Below are positions 539-7,900 of a stretch of 9,510 nt of DNA, piece after piece. Every line of letters starts with the position of its first letter. Position 1 is the stretch's first letter. Source of the DNA: a bacterium (GTDB lineage: Bacteria > Patescibacteria > Paceibacteria > UBA9973). The stretch covers positions 1 to 9,510 of the forward strand of contig JAKALG010000027.1 in assembly GCA_021813235.1 (NCBI GenBank). Reading direction: 5' to 3'. The translations under genes were made by a program, and so were the position numbers. A model generated the notes under the pieces. That model saw only the letters and a program-made list of their open reading frames with translations, had not been told where the DNA came from and ran no database searches.

Positions 539-1945
539 ATGCCAATTCCTAATTTTATGGTGTCTCGTAATCCGAAAACAAATCTGCCAATAAATCAGAA
601 TAAGATTTCTGCTTCTACAGCAGTTCCTACAGAAAATACAAAAGTTCAGCCACCAATAAATCAGGTACCAACTTCTGTATCTTCAACGGGTTCATATCAA
701 GGTGGTCAGATGGTTCCTGCTATGGGAACTCCTGAATACAATCAGGCATCTAAAAATGCGGCTGATACCGCCGCCGCCCAAAGAGCCGCAATTGTCGCCT
801 CTACTCAGGGAAATACAGGAACGACCTTTGACCCAAACAACTTCAACGCTAATATAGGCAATCTCTATAAAGCCAATGCTCCTATAGACCTAAATGCTAC
901 TGGTATAAATCAGGACTTGACCAATCTCAACGCCATCAACTCTCAGATAGCTAAGACCACGGGGAATAAGCTGATGTATGACGCCAATGCCTATGGAGGC
1001 GCTGTGGCTAATCCCACGGCCGGAGACTTTCTTGGAAACAACCTTGACTTCAATGCTCAAAGGGCGGCGGCTGTTCTCGGTGGACTAGGCTTGGCACAAA
1101 CAGGTATCACGAACACCTTGCAGAATCAGCTTGCTGTAGCTCAAGCTCAAAGGACTGCTGGCGTCGAGCAGGCTGGAGTTCCATTCAGCGCCGCCAATCA
1201 GCCGGTAGCAACTCAACCCGCTACAACATATGTGAATCCTTACAATCCTGTCTCGGTTGCGGCATTTAATGCAGGTCTTCCTGGCGGTGGTGGAACTGGT
1301 GCACTTGGAAGTGCCGTATCCACATATGCTGATAAAGTTAAAGCTGGTCAGATGAGTTATGATGACGCCGTAAAAGCCCTATCCGCTTATGGCCCCCGTG
1401 GACAGCAATCTCTTACTCAAGCGCTTGGGCCTAACTTCAATGTGGCTCAATCTAATACACTTGCCGCACAGCAGGGTGCAATCGGCCCATCTTTCAATTT
1501 TGCCAAAACAGCTTTACAGAATGTGCAAAACACAATTAAAGATTTGGGAATTACACAGAACACTAATATTCCACTCGTTAACCAAGCAAGTAATTGGGCT
1601 TCCATGCTGACTGGGTTAGGTTCCGAGAAAACTAGAGCATATATGCAGGCCGTTCAGGAGGCTAGGAATGCCTATCAACAGCTTTTGGCCGCTTCTAAGG
1701 GTGGAACGCCATCAGATTATAGTGGACAGGCAACTGCGGCTATTCCTGACCAACCTACACCTAATGATATTAACGCCGCCTTGAGCACTGTAGAAGGTCT
1801 TGGAGGAGCCAAAGTTGGTATTTATGGAAATCCAGGAGCTTCAACATCTAATACGGCTTCTGGTCAGAGCTTTACAGAAGGCCAAACAGCCGCAGGTGGA
1901 GAACTGATATATAAGGATGGTAAGTGGCAAGTTAATAGCAAATGA
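539..1945 (+). CDS. Low-complexity Ala/Asn/Gln/Thr-rich phage structural or ejection protein
   Basis: A 468-residue protein in which I see no Cys or His and only two Trp. The first 80 residues are Pro/Asn/Thr/Ser-rich and probably disordered. Residues of about 170-210 and 320-390 are Ala/Gln-rich and probably helical, and a Gly-rich linker (LPGGGGTGALGS) lies near residue 250. The C-terminus ends in a short beta-like motif, GELIYKDGKWQVNSK. This composition is typical of phage internal virion, scaffold-like or ejection proteins. The neighbour downstream, which looks like a DNA-ejection protein, supports this. The start ATG follows TAATAAT with no SD; the preceding stop is four bases upstream, so reinitiation is likely. 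No enzymatic motif is visible. The exact role is unknown. Confidence 0.7.
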   Translation: MPIPNFMVSRNPKTNLPINQNKISASTAVPTENTKVQPPINQVPTSVSSTGSYQGGQMVPAMGTPEYNQASKNAADTAAAQRAAIVASTQGNTGTTFDPNNFNANIGNLYKANAPIDLNATGINQDLTNLNAINSQIAKTTGNKLMYDANAYGGAVANPTAGDFLGNNLDFNAQRAAAVLGGLGLAQTGITNTLQNQLAVAQAQRTAGVEQAGVPFSAANQPVATQPATTYVNPYNPVSVAAFNAGLPGGGGTGALGSAVSTYADKVKAGQMSYDDAVKALSAYGPRGQQSLTQALGPNFNVAQSNTLAAQQGAIGPSFNFAKTALQNVQNTIKDLGITQNTNIPLVNQASNWASMLTGLGSEKTRAYMQAVQEARNAYQQLLAASKGGTPSDYSGQATAAIPDQPTPNDINAALSTVEGLGGAKVGIYGNPGASTSNTASGQSFTEGQTAAGGELIYKDGKWQVNSK

Positions 1946-1946
1946 C

Positions 1947-3650
1947 ATGCAGGATAATATACCAACAAGGAATAATAATCCAGGAGACTTAAAGAATCCC
2001 CAGACGGGTGAGTTTCAACAGTTTTCAAATCCACTGGATGGTAAGGCCGCCCTATATAATGACTTGACTGCTAAGATGACTGGCACTTCTACCACGGGAA
2101 TAGGGCCGTCAAGTTCTTTGGTAGATTTTGCGAAAGTATATGCACCTGCCTCTGATAAAAATGACCCAATCCAATATGCGGCCAATCTTGCTAATCAACT
2201 TAATATATCTCCTGATACTCAAATTGGTACGCTTAAATCACGCATAGATGATTTTGCCAATGCAATATCAAAAAACGAGGGATACCAGAGTCAAACTAAT
2301 CCTGATATGCCAGAACAGAATATGCAAAGCACAGAAGGTCAAGGACAGATAATTTCTCCTACTATTAACACGGCACCAAAGCCTGATTTTCTTGACAAAG
2401 TCGCAGGAGTTGCAAATGCAATTTTGGGTGTAACTGGAGGACAACAGATATCTAAAACACTTGGAAATGCTTTGGGACTTGTGTGGAGTAAAGCCTCTGA
2501 TTTACTGAATGGAACTGATTACTCAAAATACTACGATACATCAGATACGCCATCATTTTTGCAGAATGTAGGTGATATCGGTCAATTAGGTTTAACCTTA
2601 GCGGCTCCAGAAGTAGGAGCAGGAGAAGGAATGTTGGCAAGAATTGGTGCAAATGCCGCTTTGGGAGCAGGTATAGGTGCTTCTCATGCTTTAGCTAATA
2701 AGGGAGATATAACTAGTGAAGCCGGAACTGGAGCTTTGATGGGAGGTATTGCTACGCCAGCTATTGAAGGTATATCAAAACTATTCTCGTTCCTACCTGA
2801 TTCCATCATGTCAAAAGCCCTCAATGGAGCTGAAGATGATGTTAAGAACTCTGTTCTCAATAATAAACATATGTGGACAGTCGGAAGTGCATTACAAGAA
2901 ACAAACAAAGGAATAAGTCTGGCTGGTAACAAAATAGATAATATTTTGTCAAATATGCCAGAAGAAAAGAATCTTGGAAGCGGTAGTGACTCACTAGATA
3001 AAGCACTAATAAAGTTTCAGCAATCTTCTCTATTTCCTGAAACAACTGCTCCTGGAGAAGTAGGATTTTTTGACGCACAAACAGAAGCAAGAAACAATCT
3101 AATCAAACAACTAAAAGGATATGTACCAGGTAAGGGTGCGTTGGTAGATAAACTCGCTAATGGGGACGCTACTCTCTTAGAGAAAAATGAACTTCGCCAA
3201 GCACTTGACAAAACCTATACCACGCTTGATCCTGAATCAACTTGGAAAAAAACGCTTGCTAAGAGCGTAGCCGATAATCTAAGAGATGAAGTACAGTCAT
3301 GGGCACCAGATACTCAACCGTATTTCCAACAAATGACTAAAAACTATGGCATAAAGGATGCCCTTGAACCAATCGCAGAAAAAGCGGGAAAGACTAAAGG
3401 AATTGGCCTGTATGATTTGACCGCCTTTCTTGCCGGTCATACTCTCGGTGGTCCATTTGGAGGTTTAGGAGCTGTAGCCGCAGAAAGAGCATTAAGAAAT
3501 CCTAATGCTGACTTGATGGCGGCTCGTTTCCTTTCAAGAAGTGGAGGGATGATTGGTTCTCTTGCTAAAGCAGGAAAAGCACCAGTCTTGAACGCTATTC
3601 TAGGAGGTCTTCAGCAGGGCCAATCCACAAAAGCCACAACAAACCAATGA
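1947..3650 (+). CDS. Probable DNA-ejection / internal virion protein with N-terminal lysozyme-like domain
   Basis: A 567-residue protein. Residues 8-95 carry the RNNNPGDLKNP motif followed by a GKAALYNDLTAKM helix, DFAKVYAP and a helix ending near NEGYQ. This pattern occurs in virion-associated murein hydrolase-like domains (structural protein P5-like), so local peptidoglycan opening during entry is the expected job. A polar linker (about 95-140) leads to a hydrophobic Gly/Ala-rich region (about 205-280, LGLTLAAPEVGAG, ANAALGAGIGAS, GTGALMGGIATP) that could insert into a membrane. The remainder is mostly helical, with a second Gly-rich stretch (LAGHTLGGPFGGLGAVAAERA). This layout fits podovirus-type ejection proteins. 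I chose ATG 1947, one base after the upstream stop (TGACATG). ATG 1917 would add ten residues and overlap the upstream gene by 29 bases. Confidence 0.72.
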   Translation: MQDNIPTRNNNPGDLKNPQTGEFQQFSNPLDGKAALYNDLTAKMTGTSTTGIGPSSSLVDFAKVYAPASDKNDPIQYAANLANQLNISPDTQIGTLKSRIDDFANAISKNEGYQSQTNPDMPEQNMQSTEGQGQIISPTINTAPKPDFLDKVAGVANAILGVTGGQQISKTLGNALGLVWSKASDLLNGTDYSKYYDTSDTPSFLQNVGDIGQLGLTLAAPEVGAGEGMLARIGANAALGAGIGASHALANKGDITSEAGTGALMGGIATPAIEGISKLFSFLPDSIMSKALNGAEDDVKNSVLNNKHMWTVGSALQETNKGISLAGNKIDNILSNMPEEKNLGSGSDSLDKALIKFQQSSLFPETTAPGEVGFFDAQTEARNNLIKQLKGYVPGKGALVDKLANGDATLLEKNELRQALDKTYTTLDPESTWKKTLAKSVADNLRDEVQSWAPDTQPYFQQMTKNYGIKDALEPIAEKAGKTKGIGLYDLTAFLAGHTLGGPFGGLGAVAAERALRNPNADLMAARFLSRSGGMIGSLAKAGKAPVLNAILGGLQQGQSTKATTNQ

Positions 3651-4026: not shown

Positions 4027-4308
4027 ATGACCCAGAGATTGAACAAAAAACTACATGAGATAGTTGATAACGGATATATCACAATCCTAGTCACTGTAAT
4101 GTTGGGTTTTGCTGGTTGGATAGGAATATCAACCATCCAAAACCAAGTAGCGATTGCTGAAACCCGTACTCAACTAACTGATGTTGCTTCATCGGTAGAT
4201 GAAATAAAAAGCGATATCAAGTCTTTAGTCCTACCGAGACTTGGAGTCAATCCTGGTGTCCTAAGTTATGTACAATCTCTTAATGCTTCATCAACAGCAC
4301 AAAAATGA
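4027..4308 (+). CDS. Small membrane protein with a coiled-coil tail
   Basis: A 93-residue protein. A basic, polar N-terminus (TQRLNKKLHEIVDNG) precedes one clear membrane segment at about residues 17-36 (YITILVTVMLGFAGWIGIST). A probable coiled coil follows at about 39-68 (heptad-like I/V/L spacing through TRTQLTDVASSVDEIKSDI), then a short Ser/Ala-rich tail. The topology resembles phage lysis accessory or haemolysin-XhlA-like proteins, and also small virion membrane anchors; I cannot choose between them. I use the ATG at 4027, four bases after the preceding stop. An upstream in-frame ATG at 3916 would run through the previous gene and is unlikely. Its TGA overlaps the next ATG (ATGA at 4305-4308), indicating translational coupling to the protease gene. 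Confidence 0.7.
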   Translation: MTQRLNKKLHEIVDNGYITILVTVMLGFAGWIGISTIQNQVAIAETRTQLTDVASSVDEIKSDIKSLVLPRLGVNPGVLSYVQSLNASSTAQK

Positions 4309-5216
4309 AAACAATACTAATTGAAGGTAAGGTACCAGCAGGTGCAAAACATCAACCAATCTTCCGTTTTTTTCACAAGAAATTACGAAGACTCACTGGA
4401 AAAAGACTTGCTAAGGGTATGGGTGTAGACTGGACAAAAGGCTCACAGTTTAGAACTCAAGCCTCTGGATTGCCTATAAAAAATCAAGGCTCCAATTTCT
4501 CTTGTGGAGGTGAAGCCGGTGCATATTTCTTGGAAATAATGCGCCGCATTCAAAATATCCAAGAGGGAGAGATATCTGCCAAGTCAATATACGCTCCTAT
4601 AGCATATCCAGGAGGGGGAACCACAATAACATCGCTTATGACCCAAATCGGCGCTCACGGGGCCAATTTGGAGGCCACAGTGCCATCCTACGACTCAAAT
4701 GGACAACCTTTGGATGAAATACAGATGACAGATAAGTCATTTATGACATCTGAAAATATAAAAGATGCTCTGTCAAGAGCTGGATACACTCCATATGATT
4801 GTCAAGATGATATTGAGAGCGTTGCCGAAGCTATCAATACTTATGGAGCTGTAATATGGGAAATAACAGGCCAAAATGGAAACACTCCTGACTGGATTAG
4901 TGCTACTCCACAACCGCCTCAAATTGGAAACCCAAACCCTCTTTGGAGGCATTTCATGTGTGCTTATGATTTCTCGTTGGATGAAAACGGAAAACAAAGG
5001 ATACACGCATATCAAAGCATGAGTAGCGGATGGGGTGACAAAGGTATACAATACTTCTATGAAGAATACTTCACTGGAAAGTATTTGGACGCATTCACTT
5101 TCATCTATGATACTAAATTAGTACCGAACTCTGATAATCATTCTATTTGGGCTGAACTATTGAGGTGGTTTAGAATCACTCAATTCAAACTTGCTGGTAC
5201 TTTGGGCTATGCTTGA
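4305..5216 (+). CDS. Papain-fold cysteine protease (peptidase C1-like) of phage
   Basis: A 303-residue protein. IKNQGSNFSCGGEAGAYF (58-75) matches the papain QGSCGSCWAF signature with exact spacing: Q61 would be the oxyanion Gln and C67 the nucleophile. H216 in WRHFMCAYDF is the catalytic His candidate. YQSMSSGWGDKG (236-247) aligns without gaps to papain NSWGTGWGENG, but the catalytic Asn is Gln (Q237) and the first Trp is Met (M239). The papain disulfide Cys before the nucleophile is Asn (N64). No signal peptide or obvious propeptide is visible. A basic N-terminal stretch (FFHKKLRRLTGKRLAKG) and a hydrophobic C-terminus (IWAELLRWFRITQFKLAG) may bind membrane or partner. The role is unknown: virion maturation, entry or lysis are possible. 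It is coupled by ATGA to the membrane-protein gene upstream. Confidence 0.83.
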   Translation: MKTILIEGKVPAGAKHQPIFRFFHKKLRRLTGKRLAKGMGVDWTKGSQFRTQASGLPIKNQGSNFSCGGEAGAYFLEIMRRIQNIQEGEISAKSIYAPIAYPGGGTTITSLMTQIGAHGANLEATVPSYDSNGQPLDEIQMTDKSFMTSENIKDALSRAGYTPYDCQDDIESVAEAINTYGAVIWEITGQNGNTPDWISATPQPPQIGNPNPLWRHFMCAYDFSLDENGKQRIHAYQSMSSGWGDKGIQYFYEEYFTGKYLDAFTFIYDTKLVPNSDNHSIWAELLRWFRITQFKLAGTLGYA

Positions 5217-5261
5217 GAGCATAGTCCTGGGCTGGCATTGCCGCCCAGAACCATGCTCTTA
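5214..5261 (+). other. Strong RNA hairpin spanning the protease stop and abutting the exonuclease start
   Basis: The outer stem pairs 5214-5222 (TGAGAGCAT, beginning with the TGA stop) with 5253-5261 (ATGCTCTTA), including one G-U. The inner stem pairs CTGGGC (5227-5232) and GGC (5234-5236) with GCCGCCCAG (5240-5248), with one bulged T and an ATT loop. The next ATG is at 5264, two bases after the stem. No T-tract follows, so it is not a standard terminator. It may separate late structural genes from the exonuclease gene by processing, pausing or start-site occlusion. Confidence 0.6.
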
Positions 5262-5263
5262 AC

Positions 5264-6052
5264 ATGTCTATACTAGAAAATCAAACTCCGTTTTCGTTCG
5301 ATGATAAAGTATTGTTTTTTGACATTGAAACCACTCCGACAAAAGGATGGGCTTTTAGAAATTATGAAGCAAATGTCTTTGAAATAGAGGAATACTTCCA
5401 TATTCAATCATATTCTTATAAATGGGGAGAAAAAGGGAAAACAAAATGCGTGGCACTTCCTGATTTTCCTTTGTATAAAAAAGAACCACACAATGATTTA
5501 GAACTGGTAAAATCTCTATTTGATTTATGGTCTAAAGCTGATATCATCATCGGATATAATGGAGATAGATTTGATATAAAGAAAACCAGACATAGGTTTT
5601 TGATACATGGCTTAGGAAATGTATACTCTTTCAAAACTATAGACCCATTGAAGATTGCTAAAAAACTTGGATTTTTCTCTAACTCTCTTAATGGTGTCAG
5701 TGATGAATTGGGTTTAGGAAAGAAAGTAGAACATGAGGGTAACCTGTGGAAAAAGTGTTATGATGCTTACTTGACAAATGATAAGAAATCATGGAAAAAA
5801 ATGAAAGAATATAACAATCAAGATATAGAACTATTATACCTTGTATCTCGACGATTAATTCCTTACATGGAAAGATATCCTAGAGTAAAAATGGACAATG
5901 GAAAATGTCCTGTATGCGGAGGAACAAACTTTAAGAGAAATGGAAAAAAATATTATAGTAATTATGAACAGCAAAGATATGCTTGTCTAAAGTGTGGTTT
6001 TGGAAATATCTATGGTGATAAAATTAAAAAAGAATGGGATATAAAACAATGA
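5264..6052 (+). CDS. DEDDy 3'-5' exonuclease (RNase H-like fold) with C-terminal zinc ribbon
   Basis: A 262-residue protein. ExoI motif VLFFDIETT gives D20 and E22; ExoII is GYNGDRFDIKKTRHRF with D104; ExoIII is YNNQD with Y183 and D187, the Y-x3-D pattern of the DEDDy class. These residues bind the two metal ions in DnaQ/PolB-exonuclease-type domains that remove nucleotides from DNA or RNA 3' ends. TIDPLKIAKKLGFFSNSLNGVSDELGLG (125-152) is the usual linker region before ExoIII. The C-terminus carries CPVC (215-218) and CLKC (241-244), a four-Cys zinc ribbon likely to bind nucleic acid. I see no polymerase domain, so it is a stand-alone exonuclease, possibly for phage DNA replication, recombination or host nucleic-acid turnover. 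There is no SD; the ATG follows the 5214-5261 hairpin. It ends in an ATGA overlap with the next gene. Confidence 0.85.
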   Translation: MSILENQTPFSFDDKVLFFDIETTPTKGWAFRNYEANVFEIEEYFHIQSYSYKWGEKGKTKCVALPDFPLYKKEPHNDLELVKSLFDLWSKADIIIGYNGDRFDIKKTRHRFLIHGLGNVYSFKTIDPLKIAKKLGFFSNSLNGVSDELGLGKKVEHEGNLWKKCYDAYLTNDKKSWKKMKEYNNQDIELLYLVSRRLIPYMERYPRVKMDNGKCPVCGGTNFKRNGKKYYSNYEQQRYACLKCGFGNIYGDKIKKEWDIKQ

Positions 6053-6550: not shown

Positions 6551-6769
6551 ATGTCAAGTTTATACAAAAGAAATTGCCACTTCTGCGGCAAGCCGTTCCT
6601 GTCAGTCAGTTCAGACGCATCCTTCTGTTGCGGCGCGCATTTCCTCCGAAACTTTACGGGAGAAGTACACGACCCACAAGAAAACGACGCTCGTTCTATT
6701 GAACAGCAACTGCTTCTCCGTTTGGTGGAGAACAATGCACAGCACATAATCATCAACGAAAGGAGGTGA
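6551..6769 (+). CDS. Small zinc-finger-like protein (72 residues)
   Basis: It begins MSSLYKRNCHFCGKPFLS and carries C9, C12, C26, C27 and H30. CHFCGKPF followed by SFCCGAHFLRNF is a likely treble-clef or zinc-ribbon-like C-x2-C...C-x3-H site for nucleic-acid or protein binding. The second half is acidic and helical (DPQENDARSIEQQLLLRLVENNAQ). There is no SD. The ATG at 6544, in another frame, has the AACTAACATG context and would give a basic 52-residue product ending at 6702; I prefer 6551 because only this frame yields a recognisable metal site. The gene's last codons and TGA lie inside a perfect 12-nt anti-SD complement (6759-6770). Its codons are rich in C endings like the preceding small gene. 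Confidence 0.6.
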   Translation: MSSLYKRNCHFCGKPFLSVSSDASFCCGAHFLRNFTGEVHDPQENDARSIEQQLLLRLVENNAQHIIINERR

Positions 6770-6770
6770 T
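6759..6770 (+). promoter_or_regulatory. Perfect 12-nt Shine-Dalgarno without a normal start codon
   Basis: AAAGGAGGTGAT is fully complementary to the common bacterial 16S rRNA 3' tail. No ATG, GTG or TTG lies at usable spacing downstream. Seven bases after GGAGG is ATC (6774), which would open a 23-residue frame (beginning I/M-RGAGKFTPY, ending NALLI, stop at 6843-6845). It may serve a non-AUG leader peptide, or be a remnant whose start was lost. Confidence 0.6.
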
Positions 6771-6811: not shown

Positions 6812-6843
6812 AAGAGCGCTTATCCACAACGCTCTTTTGATTT
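6812..6843 (+). terminator. Hairpin terminator, possibly bidirectional, with a DnaA box in its loop
   Basis: AAGAGCG (6812-6818) pairs with CGCTCTT (6830-6836), followed by TTTGATTT on the plus strand. The complementary strand reads CGCTCTTGTTT after the stem, so it may also stop the minus-strand HTH gene, whose TAA (6820-6822) lies in the loop. The 11-nt loop contains an exact TTATCCACA (6820-6828). Confidence 0.6.
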
Positions 6844-7002
6844 AATCAAACCTAAAGCTTTCATTTCTTTTCTAATATCATAGACATCGAACCTGGTTAT
6901 ATCGTACTTTCGTCCTATATATTCTGCGTCTGTGTGGTTTGATTTATCAGGATGTAATATGAAGTTCATTATTTCTTTTTTTCTCTCTGTGGAGATTTTC
7001 AT
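6820..7002 (-). CDS. Small helix-turn-helix-like regulator (60 residues), probably leaderless
   Basis: It begins MKISTERKKEIMNFILH. An N-terminal helix is followed by a segment (about 24-52) running DAEYIGRKYDITRFDVYDIRKEMKALGLI, which reads as helix-turn-helix followed by a recognition helix and the typical start of a wing. It is basic overall. A role as a DNA-binding regulator is inferred from this pattern and from its position divergent from the lysis-side promoter. The ATG at 7002 lies seven bases after an extended -10 (TGCTATATT), so the mRNA would begin at or next to the start codon. A TTG six bases further upstream is the alternative. No SD is possible. The stop lies in the loop of the terminator-like hairpin. 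Confidence 0.65.
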   Translation of the reverse strand: MKISTERKKEIMNFILHPDKSNHTDAEYIGRKYDITRFDVYDIRKEMKALGLIKSKERCG

Positions 7003-7036: not shown

Positions 7037-7044
7037 GTGGATAA
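7036..7044 (-). promoter_or_regulatory. DnaA-box-like site (one mismatch) between divergent promoters
   Basis: The minus strand reads TTATCCACT, one base from the consensus. It touches the -35 of the HTH-like gene's promoter and lies in the 14-base gap between the two -35 elements, where a bound protein could influence both directions. Single-mismatch sites are expected by chance at this length. Confidence 0.3.
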
Positions 7045-7050
7045 CTCTTA

Positions 7051-7080
7051 TAGACACTAAATAACATTTTCATGTATAAT
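7051..7080 (+). promoter_or_regulatory. Strong promoter of the structured RNA and lysis genes
   Basis: TAGACA (7051-7056), an 18-base spacer, then consensus TATAAT (7075-7080) preceded by TG, an extended -10. Seven bases on is G7087, exactly the first base of the 21-bp helix that closes the downstream structured RNA. Confidence 0.72.
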
Positions 7081-7086
7081 GTATCA

Positions 7087-7241
7087 GGTTGAGTTTAGTG
7101 TGTTGGGATTTACGAGCACGCTCTCTTATATAAAATACAAATACTTCGACTGGTAGCGCTTCTTCCATTGTCTACGATATCGTAGATACTCAGTTGGCTC
7201 CGTCAGTTCCCAACCTGACGCCCAACACACTAAACTTGACC
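7087..7241 (+). ncRNA. Candidate structured RNA (~155 nt) closed by a 21-bp helix
   Basis: Arms 7087-7107 and 7221-7241 pair at all 21 positions with two G-U pairs; the core 16 bp (AGTTTAGTGTGTTGGG) is perfect. Inside are three elements: CGTCAG/CTGACG (7201-7206 with 7215-7220, loop TTCCCAAC); TCTACG-ATAT-CGTAGA (7171-7186), extendable by G7170-U7187 and U7169-A7188; and CGACTGG (7147-7153) with TCAGTTG (7190-7196) enclosing the second hairpin. A weaker GAG/CTC hairpin lies at 7114-7123. The predicted transcription start falls on the first paired base. There is no terminator after 7241, so it is either a leader of the holin-like and lysozyme-like genes or is released by RNase III-type cleavage of the long helix. 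I match it to no known RNA family. Confidence 0.65.
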
Positions 7242-7264
7242 ATTAAAAGCTAACCAATTAAAAA

Positions 7265-7456
7265 ATGAATAGCACTTATGTTACCGTAGCAGTAATGGTC
7301 TTGGCCGCAATTCTTCCTCGTTTTGGAATTAATCTTGGAAATGATTCCTTAACCACGGTAGTTGAAGGTTTGATTCAGATTGTCGGTGGTTTATATGTTT
7401 ACTTTAGCCACAAGTCAGTCGTTACTGCCGCCAAAGCCGCTGGTGTATCGTTTTAG
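7265..7456 (+). CDS. Holin-like small membrane protein
   Basis: A 63-residue protein with two probable membrane segments, about 5-20 (YVTVAVMVLAAILPRF) and 30-48 (TTVVEGLIQIVGGLYVYFS), joined by a short polar loop (GINLGNDS). A short basic tail (SHKSVVTAAKAAG) follows. Size, two-helix hairpin topology and the adjacent lysozyme-like gene fit a phage holin that perforates the cytoplasmic membrane to time lysis. The ATG follows an A-rich leader (CAATTAAAAA) without an SD, 23 bases after the structured RNA's closing helix, so RNA folding or processing may control its translation. Other small two-helix membrane proteins remain possible. Confidence 0.7.
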   Translation: MNSTYVTVAVMVLAAILPRFGINLGNDSLTTVVEGLIQIVGGLYVYFSHKSVVTAAKAAGVSF

Positions 7457-7496
7457 TCTGCGATAAAAAACTATCATAACTAACTTAATCCATTCG

Positions 7497-7835
7497 TTGC
7501 TATTTGCAACGGTTGTGTATGCTTCTAGCACTCCTGTATCGTCTACCACAACTATTGCAAATATGATAAGAGAGGAGTTTGGCCCTCAAACCGTAATGGT
7601 TGAAGTAGCTCAATGTGAAAGTGAACTAAAACAATACGATGATAATGGCCAAGTATTGGTTGGAGTCACTGATGATATAGGTGTAATGCAAATCAATCCA
7701 CTATGGCTTCCAGACCTTAAAAGAAACGGTATAGACCCTTATACACTGTCAGGAAATATAAAAGCCGCTAGGTACATATATGACCGTCAAGGATTACAAG
7801 CTTGGGTTTGCGCAAAAAAACTAAACCTTATATAA
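7497..7835 (+). CDS. Lysozyme-like / lytic transglycosylase (SLT-type) endolysin, start uncertain
   Basis: From TTG 7497 this is 112 residues. VAQCESELKQYD (38-48) carries the candidate catalytic Glu E41; DIGVMQINPLW (60-70) is the G-x-M-Q-I-N motif of SLT-type lysozyme-like domains; GNIKAARYIYDRQGLQAWVCAKK (86-108) closes the fold. C40 and C105 could form a disulfide, suggesting an exported enzyme. It would cut peptidoglycan glycan strands at lysis. The frame is open from 7467 but has no ATG or GTG; TTG 7497 leaves only a short hydrophobic start (LFATVVYAS). Reading from 7473-7485 gives a better signal-like sequence (ITNLIHSLLFATVVYAS) but needs ATC, ATA or TTA initiation. I associate this domain style with Patescibacteria hydrolases, from memory. 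Confidence 0.8.
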   Translation: MLFATVVYASSTPVSSTTTIANMIREEFGPQTVMVEVAQCESELKQYDDNGQVLVGVTDDIGVMQINPLWLPDLKRNGIDPYTLSGNIKAARYIYDRQGLQAWVCAKKLNLI

Positions 7836-7869: not shown

Positions 7870-7900
7870 AAACATCCGTATCGACCGGATGTTTTGTTTT
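7870..7900 (+). terminator. Rho-independent terminator after the lysis genes
   Basis: AACATCCG (7871-7878) pairs with CGGATGTT (7886-7893), a 7-nt loop TATCGAC lies between them, and TTTTGTTTT follows. It lies between convergent gene sets and overlaps the minus-strand gene's stop (7899-7901). In the minus direction the tract after the stem is weak. Confidence 0.85.

Follow-up and report, generated by a model that had tools for sequence, protein, structure and literature searches.

The window, that is, the whole stretch of 9,510 nucleotides that was analyzed, is phage-like DNA as judged by its gene content in family searches of its ORFs. It encodes an exonuclease with an RNase_H_2 domain (PF13482, E 1e-14 in a Pfam-type family search), the N-terminal domain of a dATP/dGTP diphosphohydrolase (E 1e-12) and a YopX protein (E 2e-22). 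Another of its proteins matches phrog_873 at E 1e-11, a family listed as 'endolysin' under head and packaging. The element under study (7087-7241) is located between a small divergent ORF and two probable lysis genes, with the following features:

6820-7002, minus strand: divergent ORF of 60 aa from the ATG at 7002, DNA-binding-like by eye only
7051-7056, plus strand: -35 box TAGACA, 5 of 6 consensus positions
7075-7080, plus strand: -10 box TATAAT, 6 of 6 consensus positions, abutted by a TG at 7073-7074
7087-7107, plus strand: 5' arm of a 21-bp closing helix, its first base G7087 being the predicted +1
7147-7196, plus strand: uncertain helix (7147-7152 with 7191-7196) enclosing the palindrome hairpin, pair probabilities 0.47-0.49, about even odds
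7169-7188, plus strand: palindrome hairpin with the perfect 16-nt palindrome TCTACGATATCGTAGA at 7171-7186
7201-7220, plus strand: 6-bp hairpin (7201-7206 with 7215-7220) with an 8-nt loop, pair probabilities 0.88-0.99, flush against the 3' arm
7221-7241, plus strand: 3' arm of the closing helix, pairing with 7087-7107
7242-7264, plus strand: A/U-rich linker from the helix foot to the start codon, Shine-Dalgarno sequence absent by eye
7265-7456, plus strand: 63-aa ORF with two hydrophobic stretches, resembling a holin only in its position and hydropathy
7497-7835, plus strand: probable lysozyme/transglycosylase ORF with sub-threshold lysozyme-type matches, start codon uncertain
7870-7894, plus strand: terminator-like site 3' of the second ORF, from the terminator scan

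The two ORFs downstream of the element are probable rather than proven lysis genes. For the 63-aa ORF, the best family matches were weak and uninformative, and in the protein database it matched only itself. The preliminary description of this DNA spoke of lysis genes. For the second ORF, this assignment is supported by an IagB-type match in NCBIfam (E 2e-4), whose 21 bits are below the cut-off of 208, by weak SLT-type Pfam matches and by a tblastn match (E 9e-3) to lyZ1 as annotated in Caudoviricetes MW202577. It is weakened by matches to flavodoxin models below threshold (E 0.011) and by a PDB sequence search that returned no lysozymes among 18 sequences up to E 10. In the protein database, this ORF matched only its own shorter form, and its predicted structure has a mean pLDDT of 41. 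Its frame is open 5' of the first ATG (7563), from 7467 to 7562, across a signal-like hydrophobic stretch, and the only start codons upstream of this ATG are TTG (7497) or rarer ones. In locus L001, the stretch 5' of lyZ1 is mildly structured (z -2.3), and the 67-aa ORF beside lyZ1 gave no alignment to the 63-aa ORF.

Upstream of the element, the divergent ORF had no PHROG match in its 62-aa form, while its first 52 aa had no Pfam match and one NCBIfam match below the cut-off (E 0.052). A promoter-like site on the minus strand (7036-7009, 9/12, with a TG before the -10 box) has its predicted +1 at the A of the ATG at 7002, and the message of this ORF is possibly leaderless and divergent from the lysis operon. 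Further upstream, a perfect AAAGGAGGTGAT at 6759-6770, complementary to the entire 16S rRNA tail, runs across the stop codon of the 6551-6769 ORF; by eye, no start codon follows it at the usual spacing. An inverted repeat AAGAGCG...CGCTCTT (6812-6836), located 3' of the same ORF and overlapping the end of the divergent ORF, is possibly a two-way terminator, though it is absent from the list of the terminator scan.

The exonuclease was the main source of comparison loci. The protein database has 37 matching proteins including the exonuclease itself, which is recorded on five contigs; the best others are at 58 and 54 %. From at least 296 loci with exonuclease relatives in IMG/VR, 80 were kept (29-43 % identity in the best segment, among the matches listed), and three further loci have 31-33 % identity; no exonuclease relative was found among 117 stretches from genome_contigs. 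Together with four phage records, the 80 loci form a partly redundant set of 84 comparison loci (702,487 b). The three further loci are absent from the helix scan of these 84 loci and present in the covariance-model and promoter/helix scans. In a tblastn search of 16 other ORFs or frames of the window against the 84 loci, with two frames translated past a stop and the divergent ORF entered in its 52-aa form, the only matches were two lysozyme-like ones and one YopX-like one. Four window ORFs searched one by one in IMG/VR matched pattern stretches (69 for the 63-aa ORF, two for the 4305-5216 ORF, one for the lysozyme-like ORF and three for the 1917-3650 ORF), and no relatives were confirmed among them.

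The element is preceded by TAGACA-18-TATAAT (7051-7080), which agrees with the sigma-70-like consensus at 11 of 12 positions and is the sole site of at least 11/12 on both strands of the window; four other promoter-like sites reach 10/12. The predicted +1, seven bases past the last T of TATAAT, is G7087, the first paired base of the closing helix. The preliminary description had based this start on an extended -10 promoter, which has to be withdrawn because the TG abuts TATAAT without a spacer base, a shift of one position, and the promoter scan answered 'no'. Nevertheless, the predicted start at the helix foot stands. Across 88 sources, which include the window itself and the three further exonuclease-relative loci (771,813 b, both strands), 305 promoter-like sites of at least 10/12 were found, and the chance of a helix foot at the +1 of such a promoter is approximately 2e-4 per position and strand. 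The same sources contain 1,128 helices of at least 12 bp, with a mean of 0.27 promoter/foot coincidences per offset. A foot at most 2 nt from the +1 of a promoter of at least 10/12 was found for three helices, namely the 21-bp one and two of 12 bp.

Recomputing the arms confirmed that they are 113 nt apart and paired at all 21 positions, with 19 Watson-Crick and two G-U pairs (U7090-G7238 and G7091-U7237), as had been described before; the pair probabilities in the ensemble are 0.98-1.00. The rarity of this clamp was assessed for helices with at most two G-U pairs and a span of at most 350 in 100 dinucleotide-preserving shuffles of the window. The mean helix count per shuffle was 21.6 for 10 bp, 0.49 for 13 bp and 0.02 for 16 bp, and the longest helix over all 100 shuffles had 18 bp (two cases). 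Extrapolated to 21 bp, the expectation is between about 3e-5 (from the slope) and about 5e-4 (from the two 18-mers). The window itself has 23 helices of 10 bp, six of 11 bp, none of 12-20 bp and one of 21 bp; once more G-U pairs are allowed, one 18-bp helix with four G-U pairs is added. In a separate set of 60 shuffles, the maximum was 18 bp with any number of G-U pairs and 16 bp with at most two, and the longest helix with at most three G-U pairs in the 84 comparison loci had 18 bp. The RNA-structure prediction is real, statistically strong and correctly located.

The whole element folds with -55.9 kcal/mol and a z of -6.7, with none of 200 shuffles as good, although this z was computed on element boundaries picked after the fact. 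In a sliding scan with 160-nt segments on both strands, 7081-7240 ranks fifth of 468 (z -4.7), behind four minus-strand segments, of which three overlap one another at 5121-5360 and the fourth is at 5761-5920. The intergenic stretch 5195-5266, which separates the 4305-5216 ORF from the exonuclease gene starting at 5264, is strongly folded in its own right (-32.5 kcal/mol, z -3.7), with the exonuclease start codon paired at the foot of its hairpin; minus-strand segments overlapping this stretch outscore the element in the fold scan.

The interior alone (7108-7220) is little more structured than shuffled sequence (z -1.8, 12 of 200 shuffles as good), and therefore the clamp is the conspicuous part of the element. 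Inside, the palindrome pairs with probabilities of 0.97-1.00 and is extended by G7170-U7187 (0.87) and U7169-A7188 (0.64). The two hairpins reported earlier, at the palindrome and at 7201-7220, are thus firm, whereas the enclosing helix reported with them is no better than even and the interior as a whole is inconspicuous. A perfect 16-nt palindrome arises in 3 of 2,000 shuffles of the interior compared to 32 of 200 shuffles of the window, so that what stands out is where the palindrome lies rather than that there is one; no second copy occurs in the window with up to three mismatches. The earlier statement that no protein is encoded in this stretch was not confirmed; ORFs of 24-34 aa overlap the element or its promoter.

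Searches for relatives and named classes left the element on its own. Rfam 15 covariance models gave no match in 7040-7290 up to E 10. The two Rfam matches in the window are both outside the element and below the cut-off (E 2.8 and 3.4), and at the gathering cut-off the element falls into no Rfam 15 family, including pRNA and 6S RNA if Rfam 15 contains them. ARAGORN reported no tRNA or tmRNA genes. The exact 5'-arm pattern had no occurrence in IMG/VR; in phage records, one search returned none and blastn gave matches at chance level in nine records, the best at E 0.7 and none covering more than 15 % of the query. A blastn search of the element against plasmids returned none, and none of the papers listed in literature searches was recognized as describing this element. 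A covariance model built from the single window sequence and run with default filters had the window as its sole match in the 88 sources, the window being one of them, and no match in 23 records; it also matched the minus strand of the window with 32 bits. As one-sequence models are weak and default filters were applied, an empty search is not proof of absence. The most fitting description of the element is a structured 5' leader known in a single copy, with no homologue by the routes tried, and as such it shows both the reach and the stopping point of an analysis of this kind.

A structured RNA that starts at the helix foot upstream of the lysis genes, as originally proposed, is well supported as a prediction, with the genes being only probable. 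The proposal that the layout is that of a dedicated RNA of about 155 nt was an over-reading. The terminator scan found no terminator-like site on the plus strand in 7087-7264, including the end of the element at 7241, and the next ORF follows 23 nt on, so the element reads as an mRNA leader. Like the helix and its rarity, the promoter coincidence and this lack of a terminator-like site at 7241 are computed results. With a probability of roughly 0.45, 7087-7241 is the 5' leader of the probable holin-lysozyme mRNA, and its 5'-terminal clamp protects the message from decay.

RNA polymerase would initiate at G7087, and after 7241 is transcribed, the first 21 nt would pair with 7221-7241 and leave zero unpaired 5' nucleotides. 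The flush hairpin 7201-7220 could possibly stack coaxially on the clamp. The resulting blunt, paired triphosphate end would be a poor substrate for RppH and for 5'-end-dependent decay by RNase E or RNase J, and the lysis message would be long-lived. The clamp would stop 23 nt 5' of the start codon, and the start region would stay outside it. We infer the use of the promoter, the identity of the transcript as a lysis mRNA with this leader and protection as the purpose of the clamp. With the whole leader, the predicted openness of 7245-7280 is 0.54, compared to 0.54-0.60 with five shorter 5' ends, and that of 7255-7275 is 0.54, compared to 0.54-0.65. Strong occlusion of the ribosome binding site by the leader, as the means of timing, was set aside because the predicted openness of the start-codon region barely changes.

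By analogy, the element may work like a 5'-terminal mRNA stabilizer. In the E. coli ompA and papA leaders and the B. subtilis 5' stabilizers, the 5' end is paired at or near the +1, ahead of the region where the ribosome binds (PMC3997798). The element is alike in its predicted 5' end, with the predicted +1 G7087 paired at a probability of 0.98, and in its position upstream of the ribosome binding region. It differs in having a 21-bp clamp around a 113-nt interior, placed before probable phage lysis genes. B. subtilis RppH is reported to require at least two unpaired 5' nucleotides, and some mRNAs are reported not to be stabilized in this way. If the clamp holds, the element would be a natural phage example of the lifetime of a lysis message being set by sealing its first base in a long helix, and it would offer a convenient system for testing how mRNA decay during infection depends on access to the 5' end.

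Several points count against a protective leader. A 5' clamp needs no 113-nt interior with a palindrome that is so rare there, known 5' stabilizers are usually simpler hairpins, and neither ORF is assigned to lysis on strong evidence. A further system for comparison is the lambda late leader, a 194-nt '6S' RNA transcribed from pR' upstream of S and R, which ends at a terminator relieved by Q. Both loci have a promoter and a leader directly upstream of lysis genes, which are only probable here. However, the plus strand of 7087-7264 lacks the intrinsic terminator that a lambda-type late leader has at its end, and no Q-type family match was found in the window.

The palindrome suggests a different reading, in which the interior, with its palindrome hairpin and 8-nt loop, would time lysis by binding a ligand, be it a protein of phage or host, a small molecule or an RNA; the closing helix would only present the interior. 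The rarity of the palindrome among interior shuffles and its single copy in the window are consistent with such a regulatory leader, as are the two firm hairpins and the divergent small ORF in the same intergenic region. However, the element has no Rfam match and no terminator-like expression platform, the start-codon region is little altered by the leader, and the z of the whole interior is only -1.8. A regulatory leader is considered unlikely.

Alternatively, the repeats could act at the DNA level, as a short invertible segment, an operator palindrome or a replication or recombination site, and the RNA fold would be incidental. The two strands differ little in folding energy (-55.9 and -52.7 kcal/mol), and the element has a z of -5.2 with DNA parameters. 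The half-site ATATCRTAGA is present at 6875 and twice within 7171-7186; with at most one mismatch, there are five sites compared to 1.6 expected, and 9 of 200 shuffles reach as many. Inverted repeats of such a size flank invertible segments elsewhere. The argument for RNA from G-U pairs, which the preliminary description drew from those extending the palindrome, is weak: the two clamp G-U pairs and the one flanking the palindrome would be A-C on the opposite strand, with zero A-C on the RNA strand, but by our reckoning random transitions give this outcome in 1/8 of cases, and the DNA folds too. The coincidence of the helix foot with the +1, which is not required of a DNA element, is the better argument for RNA. 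In addition, the strong promoter is located outside the repeats, no recombinase is among the family matches of the window, and a flanking duplication is absent by eye. A DNA-level element is regarded as quite unlikely.

A free-standing phage RNA of about 155 nt, which would be released from the primary transcript by cleavage and act in trans on a host target or in the virion, is distinctly improbable. One long helix closes its 5' and 3' ends, it has its own promoter, and its self-complementary hairpin could allow it to dimerize. In size, in the helix closing both ends and in the branched interior, it resembles the phi29 packaging pRNA; it differs in that Rfam gave nothing for 7040-7290 up to E 10 and in being followed by an ORF. 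This ORF, 23 nt downstream, and the terminator scan, in which 7241 has no terminator-like site, speak against a discrete RNA, and so does the absence of relatives from the 23 records searched with the one-sequence model and from the plasmids searched with blastn, the phage records having given chance-level pieces only.

Cleavage by RNase III of the near-continuous helix formed by the 21-bp clamp and the flush 6-bp hairpin, which would give the holin-like ORF a message with a newly cut 5' end, is very unlikely. RNase III sites of this sort are known from positions between genes and not from a 5' terminus. T7 RNase III sites such as R1.1 are similar in being long helices in phage mRNA upstream of a gene (PMC8708148); the helix here differs in being branched and in forming the predicted 5' terminus of its transcript. 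Highly improbable is a new class of phage RNA, discrete at about 155 nt and closed by the blunt 21-bp clamp. It would be excised from the lysis transcript and would act in trans, perhaps dimerizing via its self-complementary hairpin loop, either to determine when lysis occurs or to become part of the virion.

For the clamp of the favored protective leader, a pattern search with GTGTGTTGGG-N95..125-CCCAACACAC, i.e. the inner 10 bp at similar spacing, matched at least 120 viral stretches (L085-L204) and 50 stretches in genomes (L208-L257), of which 39 are titled Pseudomonas (36) or Stutzerimonas (3). Among the matches listed, most pattern copies have tandem GTGTTGGGT-type repeats in their arms. 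In three annotated Pseudomonas phages, the pattern stretch is located downstream of the primase gene, in two of the three upstream of an annotated holin, and its neighbors in L208 and L219 are primase by eye. Applied to 33 of at least 170 pattern loci, model R1 matched 27 at E <=10, many on both strands, which is expected because the arms had been selected for. Kinship with the Pseudomonas elements was rejected, as nothing beyond the selected 10 bp is common to them by eye; the arms of the element are without tandem GTGTTGGGT-type repeats, and the window has no primase match. Still, the occurrence of the 10-bp arm motif in so abundant an element family is a coincidence that keeps some weight. 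Our guess is that the Pseudomonas pattern element is an iteron-bearing origin or a regulatory site.
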